A DNA stretch of 44,906 bases from Candidatus Daviesbacteria bacterium RIFCSPHIGHO2_02_FULL_43_12. GTDB lineage: Bacteria; Patescibacteriota; Microgenomatia; Daviesbacterales; UBA10151. This document shows, piece after piece, positions 29,918 through 33,523 of this stretch. Both the position numbers and the translations under genes were made by a program. The DNA lies in contig MFDD01000013.1 of the NCBI GenBank assembly GCA_001776775.1, forward strand, positions 1 to 44,906, read 5' to 3'. Below the pieces are notes generated by a model, which did no database searches, had not been told where the DNA came from, and worked only from the letters and a program-made list of their open reading frames with translations. Each line of letters starts with the position of its first letter. The stretch's first letter is position 1.

Positions 29918-31120
29918 TTATGTCAGTTTTTGAAGGAGATCTACAAGGGAGAGAGTTTCTTGAGTGCCACTGCTCAGATCCTTAAGTGTTACCTGATCTT
30001 TGGCGGCTTCATCTGGACCGATAATCACCAGGTAGGGAATACCTTTGGAGTTAGCATATTTAAATTGCTTCTCCAGTTTGCTATTTTCATCCAGCCAAAC
30101 TTCAGTATTGATACCCTCGGAGCGCAGTCGAAGAGTTAGCTCAAGAGATTTAGCTAATAAATCAGTAGAGAACACTGTCACGAGGACTTTGGTTACTGTC
30201 TTTAGCTCGGGAAATAGCCCGACAGCCTCCATCGCCTCTAACGTCCTGTCAAATCCCAGCCCAAAACCAGTTCCGGGAACATCTCGACCAGAGAGTTTTT
30301 TGGTTAAGGAGTCGTATCTTTCTCCACCCAAAACCGAACCCACTGGATATTCAGGAATAACTATCTCCCAGATAGGGCCGTCAGAGTAGGCAAAGGATCT
30401 AGCGATAGTTGGGTCAAACTCATACCAACCTTTCTCCACCCCTAATTTATCCAGCATCTCAAAGATCTGAATGATGGTTTCGTTAGGTTTAAGAGTAGTA
30501 ATGTTCTCCAGATATTGCTTAGCCTGAGTCTGAGAAATACCCTTGCTAACCATCTCAGCAATTACTCCATCAGGTCCGATCTTTTGGAGTTTATCAATAG
30601 CTGAGATCGCTTCGTAGGGATAATCTCTGAGGAGCTTGCGGTCGTTTACTTTGGCGATGGCCTTTTTGAATCCGAGCTGTTTATAAATATCCAGGGATAG
30701 CGCGATCACCTCAGCGTCAGCAGCTGGTCCGGGAATGCCCCAGATATCTGCATCACACTGCAGAAACTCTCGGTAACGCCCCTTTTGAGGCTTTTCAGCC
30801 CTAAAGGCTGGCTGGATCTGATATCTTTTAAAAGGCATCGGGATTTCAGAGACATACTGCCCAACCACCCGAGAAGCAGGGACTGTTTGGTCGTATCTTA
30901 AAGCGACTTTGCGTCCACCAGTGTCTTCAAATTTAAAAAAGAGCTTTTCATCTTCACCAATCACCCCTTCAAATACCTCAGCGTATTCTAGGGTAGGGGT
31001 TTCTAGTGGATCATAACCCCACCTCTCGAAGACTGCCCGGATTTTATCCCGCAAAAAATTACGCTTGATCGCGTCTTGAGGTAGAAAATCTCTAAATCCT
31101 TTTAAAGTCTGTAACTTCAT
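29918..31120 (-). CDS. hisS: Histidyl-tRNA synthetase
   Basis: A class II synthetase that charges tRNA-His. The start is MKLQTLKGFRDFLP; motif 1 surrounds the dimer helix, motif 2 is FRAEKPQKGRYREFLQCDADI, the His-specific loop is present, motif 3 is GTGFGLGFDRTLEAM, and the C-terminal anticodon-binding domain runs from about residue 315 (VLVTVFSTDLLAKS). At 400 aa it is typical. GGAGGGG lies 9 nt before ATG 31120, fixing the start; an in-frame codon at 31186 would extend into a hairpin. It is downstream of the T-box-led genes but also has its own promoter. Confidence 0.95.
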   Translation of the reverse strand: MKLQTLKGFRDFLPQDAIKRNFLRDKIRAVFERWGYDPLETPTLEYAEVFEGVIGEDEKLFFKFEDTGGRKVALRYDQTVPASRVVGQYVSEIPMPFKRYQIQPAFRAEKPQKGRYREFLQCDADIWGIPGPAADAEVIALSLDIYKQLGFKKAIAKVNDRKLLRDYPYEAISAIDKLQKIGPDGVIAEMVSKGISQTQAKQYLENITTLKPNETIIQIFEMLDKLGVEKGWYEFDPTIARSFAYSDGPIWEIVIPEYPVGSVLGGERYDSLTKKLSGRDVPGTGFGLGFDRTLEAMEAVGLFPELKTVTKVLVTVFSTDLLAKSLELTLRLRSEGINTEVWLDENSKLEKQFKYANSKGIPYLVIIGPDEAAKDQVTLKDLSSGTQETLSLVDLLQKLT

Positions 31121-31136
31121 AGGTTCGCCCCTCCTT

Positions 31137-31165
31137 ATATTACTTTCCCTAGATCTAAAAGACAA
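31137..31165 (-). promoter_or_regulatory. Promoter directly before hisS
   Basis: TTGTCT (31160-31165), 17-bp spacer and TAATAT (31137-31142) on the minus strand. The -35 overlaps the base of the hairpin at 31162-31197. Confidence 0.5.
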
Positions 31166-31197
31166 CCCTGCTTGCCGGCCGGACAAGCAAGAGTTGT
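31162..31197 (-). terminator. Long hairpin between the GNAT gene and hisS
   Basis: A stem of about 15 bp (ACAAC...GTTGT outer, GCTTG/CAAGC inner, one bulge) on the minus strand is followed by CTTTTAG. The T-run is short, so it may terminate only partly. It lies between the GNAT stop and the hisS promoter. Confidence 0.45.
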
Positions 31198-31200
31198 GTC

Positions 31201-31968
31201 CTAACGAGGGCTTCTGAACAAAACTCGGTCTTGGTTGATTTGGTCAATGAGTCCATTGACTACCTGACCAGTTTGTCTAATTCCTCGAGTTCCATCTGGA
31301 CTTATAAAAGGTTCTGATCTTGGACCCAGTAGCTGCTCGAAACCTATTTTTCTGGCAGCTATAGTCATGGGCGAGTCCCAACGAGTTCTCTGCAATGCAG
31401 GGATCCCTTGGCTCCGTGCCCAGTCCCATCTCCTTGTCCAAAACTCATTACTCAGACCGTTTCCTCGATAGTCTGGCAGAATGCCACTTTCGCTAAAATA
31501 TCCAAACTTACCAGCGATTCCTTGTTGCTCGAGTAGCTGGATCAATCTTACTTGGAAACGTAGTCCAGTGACATCTCCTCTTGTAACTTGATATTTGTCT
31601 TTGACAAAGTCTTTGACGTCTGGATAGTTATACATCCAAGTAAAGGCGACAATCCTTCCCTGATCTGGCCCACTGTTGGGTCTACCAATTAGAGCCAAAG
31701 ATCCATCTTTGGTTGTTTCCTCTGCAAAATATTCAACCATCTCTTGCTTGGGATACGCCACTTCTAGGGGGGTTCTTTTTGGTTGTGATGCTACTAAGCA
31801 GTCAGGACAGTCTTGACCTGGCTGAGTTTGACTACCAAAGAACCTTCCAGGCATAACTGGGCATCTGGTAACTTCGTTCCATGGTGGACCTGCAAAAACT
31901 GCTGCATATACATCAGCAAGTTCTTCGGCATCCCGACCTGGATCGAAACCTGTAAATTTAATTTCCAT
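31201..31968 (-). CDS. GNAT-family acetyltransferase-like protein
   Basis: The acetyl-CoA motif A is visible as SGILPDYRGNGLSNEFW (R-G-N-G) with a following helix, and motif B-like RTRWDSPMTIAARKIGFEQL. An N-terminal half carries TRCPVMPG and DCPDC, three to four Cys that could hold a metal, which is unusual. Start is ATG 31968 because GGAGGTGA precedes it by 5 nt; a GTG at 31977 lies inside that site. Substrate unknown; the next-upstream M20 peptidase suggests N-acyl or peptide-like compounds. The start overlaps the M20 3' end by 11 bp, so it is coupled. Confidence 0.72.
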   Translation of the reverse strand: MEIKFTGFDPGRDAEELADVYAAVFAGPPWNEVTRCPVMPGRFFGSQTQPGQDCPDCLVASQPKRTPLEVAYPKQEMVEYFAEETTKDGSLALIGRPNSGPDQGRIVAFTWMYNYPDVKDFVKDKYQVTRGDVTGLRFQVRLIQLLEQQGIAGKFGYFSESGILPDYRGNGLSNEFWTRRWDWARSQGIPALQRTRWDSPMTIAARKIGFEQLLGPRSEPFISPDGTRGIRQTGQVVNGLIDQINQDRVLFRSPR

Positions 31969-33139
31969 AATGTTCACCTCCTTTGCTTAAGATTTCCATA
32001 AGCTGCCCAAAGGCCTCTTTAAGGGTGTTAAGCTTGGATATTTCGATGTATTCATTTGGTTTATGAGCCATGACATTTTCGCCTGCTCCAAGCATCAAGC
32101 AGGGTACTTTATCAAAACACGACCATAACATTTGAATATCTATATATCCACCAGATTTAATATCTCTAAATCCTCCAGGTAAATATTTCTTTAGTGAGTT
32201 TTTAATGGGCTTAAGGCTTCTTTTTTCTGTTAACCATGAACCTAGGTCGTGTCGCACAGTAACTTGTCTTAGATTAAGCCCTTCGTTTTTCAGGTAACCT
32301 TCTAATAAACTAATCACTCTTTGAGCGTTTAATTCGGGAGCAGTTGGTCTAATATCTAGGACAAACTCAGCAAAATCAGCTATATTATTGCCTTCTTTAC
32401 CGATTCTTATATTTCCCTGACTATCTTGCCCTAGATTTAAGCCTCCTTGCATGAAAGCTAAATTACAGGTAGAAAAACCTAACTCAGTATTTTTGAATTT
32501 TGATTTTAACTCCTCGGTCAGTTTTTCAATGGCTTTGCTACTTCCAGACAGAGCATTATTGCCAGTCCAGGGTCTGGCAGCGTGACCACTTATTCCTTGA
32601 ACTTTACCCGAAACTTCGATTAACCCCTTACATCCATAACCAATAGAGAGGTCTCCACCATCTGCTGAGATCATTAATTTGGGACGAATTTTATCTTTAT
32701 ATTCTTTAATAAACTTTTTCATACCCAAAAAGTCGTATTCTTCATCAATATAAAAAAGAAAGCCCACTCCTTTGATGGGTGCGGCCTGAGGGATATTAGA
32801 AAGTAAAGCTGCTAAATTACCTTTCATATCAGTTGCACCCAGCCCAAAAAGCTTTCTATTCTTGACTGTCGGCTGAAATGGATTAGTAGTCCAGCCTGCT
32901 CGAGGTTGTACTGTGTCAAGGTGACCACAAAAAAGTATCTTAGTAGGATATCCATCTTTGGCGATAATATTAAATCGCTTTTTAGTAACTCTTTGTTTTG
33001 ATACTTTAAGCCATTTAAATTGCTTTAGGTAATCAAATATAAATTCTCCAATTTTTTGCTCATCACAATCTTCCCCTACATATGAGGGAATAGAGATTAG
33101 TCTTTTCGCTAAATCTAATGTCGCATCTGCTTTTTTCAT
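31958..33139 (-). CDS. M20-family metallopeptidase/deacylase
   Basis: A dinuclear-zinc amidohydrolase of the ArgE/DapE/CPG2 family. The metal ligands are in FCGHLDTVQP (His, Asp), GATDMKG (bridging Asp), YIDEEYDF (catalytic Glu and ligand Glu) and DGG; the dimerisation domain contains GISGHAARPWTGNNAL; the final ligand His is in GENVMAHKPNEYIE. At 393 aa it is normal. It may remove an acyl or terminal amino acid from scavenged peptides. The start is ATG 33139, overlapping the stop of a 4-codon leader ORF. It is led by a T-box riboswitch. Confidence 0.9.
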   Translation of the reverse strand: MKKADATLDLAKRLISIPSYVGEDCDEQKIGEFIFDYLKQFKWLKVSKQRVTKKRFNIIAKDGYPTKILFCGHLDTVQPRAGWTTNPFQPTVKNRKLFGLGATDMKGNLAALLSNIPQAAPIKGVGFLFYIDEEYDFLGMKKFIKEYKDKIRPKLMISADGGDLSIGYGCKGLIEVSGKVQGISGHAARPWTGNNALSGSSKAIEKLTEELKSKFKNTELGFSTCNLAFMQGGLNLGQDSQGNIRIGKEGNNIADFAEFVLDIRPTAPELNAQRVISLLEGYLKNEGLNLRQVTVRHDLGSWLTEKRSLKPIKNSLKKYLPGGFRDIKSGGYIDIQMLWSCFDKVPCLMLGAGENVMAHKPNEYIEISKLNTLKEAFGQLMEILSKGGEHYGN

Positions 33140-33150
33140 AATTTTTCCAT
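33136..33150 (-). CDS. Possible leader minigene MEKL
   Basis: ATG 33150 reads Met-Glu-Lys-Leu and stops at a TGA that shares bases with the M20 start (TTATGA). GGGAG lies 8 nt upstream, inside the 3' arm of the T-box terminator, so it is the only ribosome binding site in reach. Translation could pass from it to the M20 gene by termination-reinitiation. A chance occurrence cannot be excluded. Confidence 0.35.
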   Translation of the reverse strand: MEKL

Positions 33151-33151
33151 T

Positions 33152-33210
33152 AAAAAACTCCCGTTCGCTGCACCCCACAAACTCATATGTGAGATACAAG
33201 GAACGAGAGT
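33152..33210 (-). terminator. T-box terminator before the M20 gene
   Basis: ACTCTCGTTC (33201-33210) pairs with GAACGGGAGT (33157-33166): ten pairs with one U-G, followed by six T. A small CTCA/TGAG hairpin sits in the loop. The 5' arm is the same sequence that forms the antiterminator's 3' arm, so the two structures exclude each other. The 3' arm also hides the GGGAG ribosome binding site. Confidence 0.8.
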
Positions 33211-33293
33211 CTTGTTTTCGGAGTCTGAATGACTTCGACCGAGTACAGAGTTTTCGTTGTATCCGAAATAAACTGTTATCTCAGTTAGGTCTT

Positions 33294-33322
33294 TTTAGTA
33301 AAAAAAAGACCGCTCCCGCGGT
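33294..33322 (-). terminator. Terminator-like hairpin nested in the T-box
   Basis: GACCGCGGGAGCGGTC (stem GACCGC/GCGGTC, loop GGGA) followed by eight T on the minus strand is a strong intrinsic terminator on its own. Its 5' arm overlaps the T-box bulge and helix A2. A second hairpin GGTCTTTTT/AAAAAGACC (33285-33312) competes with it. Confidence 0.6.
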
Positions 33323-33494
33323 CCCATCCTTTGTTCCATATACCATTTCGATATACGGCTCTTAGTCCGGCTCTTATCTTGCGATAGATTGCGGTTGATA
33401 TTCTTTATACAGCTATATCCTTCTGTAGAGTATTTGGCTCTCAGCTCCCAAGTCGTGACTTTGGTACAAACGCTTTTGGCTATTAATAACAAGT

Positions 33495-33523
33495 AGTTTA
33501 CTATAAGTTCAGTCCTCTGTCAA
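33495..33523 (-). promoter_or_regulatory. Promoter of the T-box leader
   Basis: TTGACA (33518-33523), a 17-bp spacer and TAAACT (33495-33500) on the minus strand. Transcription would begin near 33487, just at the base of stem I. Confidence 0.7.

Follow-up and report, generated by a model that had tools for sequence, protein, structure and literature searches.

A predicted tRNA-His-specific T-box riboswitch with an ultrashort Stem I and two terminators ahead of an M20 peptidase and hisS operon in a CPR-type genome

The minus strand of the window, by which we mean the whole 44,906-nucleotide stretch of DNA analysed here, carries a leader that extends for about 340 nt, from a promoter at 33523-33495 to just before a gene of the M20 family (start at 33139). 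The promoter, a sigma-70-type TTGACA-17-TAAACT (33495-33523) that agrees with the consensus at 10 of 12 positions, had been proposed by an earlier sequence-only reading and is indeed found on this strand. The first gene (31958-33139) was assigned by family search to the M20 peptidases/deacylases of the ArgE/DapE-like type, the ArgE/DapE deacylases being its nearest curated families, with every score below the cut-off. It is followed on the same strand by a gene for a GNAT-like protein (31201-31977) and by hisS (29918-31186), encoding histidyl-tRNA synthetase and matching TIGR00442 above the cut-off. Of the M20–GNAT–hisS gene set expected from the sequence-only reading, the M20 and hisS genes stand in the predicted order, and the GNAT member is backed only by a weak Pfam match (E = 0.044). 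The best named relatives of the M20 protein (43-44% identity) belong to Ca. Woesebacteria and Shapirobacteria; these, together with a genome size of 1.12 Mb, lend indirect support to the suggestion of a probable CPR genome. These named relatives are known from metagenome assemblies, and the name of the class is itself inferred from them.

The leader folds more stably than its shuffled counterparts (z = -5.3) and contains an ordered series of structural elements, all on the minus strand. Stem I (33443-33474) is an ultrashort hairpin of about 32 nt, composed of an AGC/GCU base, a CCAA/UUGG apical helix and the loop GUCACGA, and is supported by the sequence, a covariance model and covariation in relatives. 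The specifier CAC (33455-33457), a His codon complementary to the anticodon GUG, lies within this apical loop, which takes the place of the GCUG-containing terminal loop described earlier. Stem II (AGAG/CUCU, 33427-33441), identified by the covariance model and covariation, is followed by a Stem IIA/B pseudoknot (33397-33426), in which ACAG/CUGU is interleaved with GAUAU/AUAUC and for which the sequence is joined by covariation in relatives. Stem III, with an outer CCG/CGG and an inner UAUC-GCAA-GAUA helix (33367-33394), and a linker hairpin leading from it to the T-box (33336-33358) are both supported by sequence, covariance model and covariation.

The T-box core AAGGA-UGGGACC-GCGGGAG (33313-33331) forms the 5′ arm of the antiterminator and, judged from the sequence, its relatives and a comparison of tRNAs, presents a bulge UGGG complementary to the CCCA end of tRNA-His. 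The 3′ arm, CUCUCGU-UCCUU (33198-33209), is conserved in relatives, and the pairing of 33331-33313 with 33209-33198 is exactly that claimed by the sequence-only reading, as is the use of part of this arm in a terminator ending in U6. This distal terminator, T2 (33152-33210), recognized from sequence and fold, consists of ACUCUCGUUC at 33210-33201 and GAACGGGAGU at 33166-33157, followed by the U-run. The antiterminator and the terminator have the arm 33210-33198 in common and are mutually exclusive. We infer that the GGGAG in the 3′ arm of T2 could double as a Shine-Dalgarno sequence for the AUG at 33150.

The amino-acid specificity, which had escaped the earlier reading along with a second terminator (T1), is indicated by two features. 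Besides the specifier codon, the bulge UGGG is complemented by C73, a discriminator carried by tRNA-His only among the 37 distinct tRNAs of the genome. The TBDB authors reject C73 of tRNA-His as a criterion, as C73 may pair with G-1 (PMC7778990). Elsewhere in the genome the Rfam T-box model RF00230 matches at five places, always below its cut-off; they lie before valS, glyS (in tandem), trpB, thrS and proS. Their Stem I is very small, with readable codons GUC for valS, GGC for glyS, UGG for trpB, ACC for thrS and CCU for proS. For every assigned T-box of the genome, the cognate tRNA has a discriminator that matches the base in the bulge (Val U/A73, Gly A/U73, Trp C/G73, Thr A/U73, Pro U/A73 and His G/C73); L043, a further T-box, carries UGGU ahead of an unidentified gene. 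As it obeys the same codon and discriminator rules, the element in the window belongs with the Val, Gly, Trp, Thr and Pro T-boxes of its own genome.

Some of these leaders have features of their own. In the thrS leader (L004, about 1466-1350, minus strand), the Thr T-box is followed by a Thr-rich reading frame, MLKVNRKTTTTTTPFRGRTL, and a further terminator-like hairpin, apparently a leader-peptide attenuator stacked on a T-box. The glyS leader (L002, 1620-1340, minus strand) contains two T-box units in succession, with the segment GAAAGTCTTTGGCAAGCTGGAG repeated. In nine non-His T-boxes of the clade (L003, L005, L043, L200, L202, L205, L210, L211 and L216), an extra hairpin with a U-run lies between Stem III and the T-box, which makes early terminators a common feature of the group.

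A search of the window with RF00230, the check put forward with the original T-box claim, gave no match at either the gathering score or a relaxed E-value. This is probably because the model expects a long Stem I, and the failure is a matter of detection threshold that involves no structural definition. Other Rfam matches in the region (Yfr10, whalefall-1 and others) fell far below the cut-off and were discarded. A covariance model built from 17 relatives, with the window left out, recovered the element with a score of 102.4 bits (E = 5.7e-29), while the second-best match in the window reached only 5.9 bits; most relatives score higher than the window's 102 bits, up to 199. The sources of TBDB are class I models of the Rfam type and a class II search of Actinobacteria (PMC7778990), so ultrashort-Stem-I leaders of this kind would probably be missed there as well.

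Orthologous leaders were collected from regions upstream of hisS and with a 19-mer of the T-box core; a search with the M20 protein yielded few usable cases. The core AAGGAUGGGACCGCGGGAG recurs in the class upstream of tRNA-His, hisG, hisS and M20 genes. With up to two mismatches, the 19-mer AAGGATGGGACCGCGGGAG was found at 50 sites in 47 of the 374 genomes of the class, spread over 12 families, as against a single match for the reversed-pattern control in the same class search. Beyond the class, about 350 other genomes from the phylum yielded 3 that have the element; two further pattern matches, both in genome G590, look unrelated and were set aside. The motif TCACG lies upstream of the core, inside a conserved hairpin loop, in 49 of the 50 leaders, the exception being truncated by the end of its contig. 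The predicted His T-box family is widespread in this class.

Alignments of these leaders display Stem I, Stem II, the IIA/B pseudoknot, Stem III, the linker hairpin and the antiterminator. Double changes occur in 27 of 48 base pairs, a value reached by none of 500 shuffles (mean 17.6), and 92% of the alignment cells in this test pair. The pseudoknot helix is paired in 91% of cases and has double changes at all four of its pairs in relatives. In 35 leaders, hardly any of which had served for training, double changes are seen at 33 of 44 pairs, with the proviso that the model was used to fit this alignment. Of the 48 complete leaders, 46 retain the 3′ arm of the antiterminator; both arms are almost invariant, so the antiterminator is backed by conservation and covariation says little about the switch itself.

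The targets of the 48 complete leaders, established by family searches for a sample and by reading translations for the rest, are tRNA-His (23 cases), hisG, hisS, and M20 or GNAT-like genes, and some of the tRNA-His genes begin right at the U-run of T2. An impression, gained by eye from about seven of eight cases in the own genome, that a start codon tends to follow directly on the terminator U-run was not retained, the class His leaders giving 9 of 43 against a background of 21 of 300. Four leaders (L131, L133, L164 and L165) precede, downstream of T2, a tRNA-His gene in which the GG of the D-loop and the TTCRA of the T-loop are absent. A normal tRNA-His is present elsewhere in the genome of L165 (G242), and genome G083 likewise has a second tRNA-His; the T-box-linked molecules might be dedicated regulatory or non-translational tRNAs. 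Six leaders of hisS or tRNA-His (L197, L198, L209, L199, L128 and L036) have Stem I with CAC, Stem II, IIA/B and Stem III, lack the T-box bulge and antiterminator, and end in a single early terminator after Stem III; they are possibly T-box-less tRNA sensors or relics. Five others (L136, L140, L143, L157 and L176) contain an insertion, similar in all of them and apparently structured, GCAUGAGCCG ... AAGGCGAAAG, which sits either within the antiterminator loop or behind T2 and gave no Rfam match.

The terminator T1 (33300-33323) is built on the T-box itself, as GACCGC-GGGA-GCGGUC-U8. Its hairpin (33323-33308, followed by U8) is made of the T-box bulge and A2 and stands between the two antiterminator arms; it is the sole match of a terminator scan across the leader stretch of the window, and hairpin energies and conservation support it. 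In most relatives it takes the form GGACC-GCGGGA-GGUCC-U6. By a strict test, T1 is present in 44 of 48 leaders compared with 5.7% of shuffled loops. The mean hairpin energy is -10.4 kcal/mol and rises to -3.9 kcal/mol with UGGG unavailable, the loss of stability being seen in all 46 scored leaders. In the window, five strong pairs (ACCGC/GCGGU, -8.2 kcal/mol) survive the blocking of UGGG, so T1 might still form there even when tRNA is bound. L162 and L173 have a weak T1 or none, and L181 and L183, from other classes, lack it; L144 and L152 keep T1 and have neither the antiterminator 3′ arm nor T2, and in L182, from another class, T1 is accompanied by a hairpin in which the Shine-Dalgarno sequence of hisG is sequestered. 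Taken together, the patterns in L144/L152, L182 and L181/L183 mark T1 as a separable module. We lean towards T1 being tRNA-regulated, a response that is itself inferred.

The original identification as a T-box is borne out by the specifier codon, the discriminator match, the domain order, covariation, the downstream genes and 49 further copies, and the element can with great confidence be called a putative His T-box. We further consider it likely that it is a tRNA-His-specific transcriptional T-box with two checkpoints, placed before an M20–GNAT-like–hisS operon, although binding, response to charging and readthrough are inferred in this description. Its basis can be read from the sequence and from comparison: a matching promoter, the specifier, a fitting discriminator, the helices, both terminators, conservation and His-related targets; that tRNA binds, that charging is sensed, that T1 is regulated rather than constitutive and that events follow a given order are inferences. 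According to this proposal, the anticodon of tRNA-His would pair with CAC in the minimal Stem I loop, beside Stem II, the IIA/B pseudoknot and Stem III. Under histidine shortage, with tRNA-His uncharged, its free CCCA would pair with the bulge UGGG once this had been transcribed, taking away the G pairs that close T1 and thereby allowing polymerase to pass. The antiterminator (AAGGA/UCCUU plus GCGGGAG/CUCUCGU) would form next, preventing T2 and leading to expression of the operon. With charged tRNA-His, whose 3′ end cannot pair, T1 would form first and T2 would stop any leak-through. Relief would raise HisRS and the M20 enzyme, the latter perhaps, and speculatively, for peptide-derived histidine.

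The most serious alternative is a canonical T-box with a single decision, in which only the choice between antiterminator and T2 is regulated and T1 acts as a constitutive attenuator or pause site, reducing output, or merely as a hairpin that slows folding. The near-complete retention of the antiterminator 3′ arm and the pairs that T1 keeps in the window when UGGG is blocked are in keeping with it, and some leaders of the GCGGUC form, including that in the window, have a downstream complement of the T1 arm (AAAAAGACC), which would open T1 only once the polymerase is past. Such a scheme does not readily accommodate T1 without T2 in L144 and L152 or alongside a translational switch in L182, nor the consistent weakening of T1 by UGGG sequestration, and we regard it as rather unlikely, without dismissing it. 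Decay into a relic with constitutive termination in this genome could be read into the comparatively low score of the window, the long loop between its arms and the occurrence of T-box-less leaders nearby in the clade, but all expected motifs are intact in the window and its pseudoknot has a compensatory sequence of its own, GAUAU/AUAUC, which makes decay improbable. Hardly credible is a histidine attenuator based on ribosome stalling at a leader peptide: a terminator does precede histidine genes, and the thrS leader of the same genome has a Thr-rich peptide, but the leader showed no His-rich reading frame, the His codon is placed within a covarying hairpin loop, and UGGG and the pseudoknot are conserved. 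Beyond the two-checkpoint T-box preferred here, a more tentative idea, to which we give somewhat less than even weight, is that T1 represents a distinct mode of tRNA sensing, gated directly by the uncharged acceptor end and able to act without a classical antiterminator, that parts of the clade have lost the T-box and keep Stems I-III with one terminator, and that the gene for the sensed tRNA is itself often under the control of the switch.

T-boxes have been described mainly from Firmicutes and Actinobacteria. His T-boxes in particular are documented in both phyla (PMC9413887), and a literature search found no paper linking T-boxes with CPR/Patescibacteria; its coverage was incomplete, and a prior report is not excluded. 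With class I transcriptional T-boxes (RF00230), the element shares a specifier codon, a UGGN bulge, an A1/A2 antiterminator and Stems II, IIA/B and III, and, as in the his operon of Firmicutes, its terminator is exclusive with the antiterminator and its targets are His-related (PMC9413887). It differs from them in its ultrashort Stem I, without a long stem or a distal elbow-binding double T-loop, in the extra terminator on the T-box, in falling below Rfam detection, and in that the leaders of relatives often transcribe tRNA-His itself. Translational T-boxes with an ultrashort Stem I have been reported in Actinobacteria (PMC7583486, citing Sherwood 2015). Their Stem I is likewise minimal and has no interdigitated double T-loop motif, whereas here such a stem goes together with transcription termination and serves six amino acids or more. 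Two terminators in sequence also recall tandem or double T-boxes, but a single T-box and a single Stem I serve both terminators in the window, unlike the glyS leader of the same genome, which looks tandem.

A review assigns ultrashort stems to translational T-boxes and states that transcriptional ones cannot do without the distal elbow-binding motif (PMC7583486), a requirement with which an ultrashort Stem I in transcriptional T-boxes fits badly. Standard Rfam screens overlook CPR-type T-boxes of this kind, and T1 points to a simpler and possibly faster way of reading the tRNA 3′ end. A whole predicted His T-box family, together with T-boxes for no fewer than five further amino acids within a single CPR-type genome of 1.1 Mb, suggests tRNA-based sensing of amino-acid starvation in some of these reduced, probably host-dependent bacteria.
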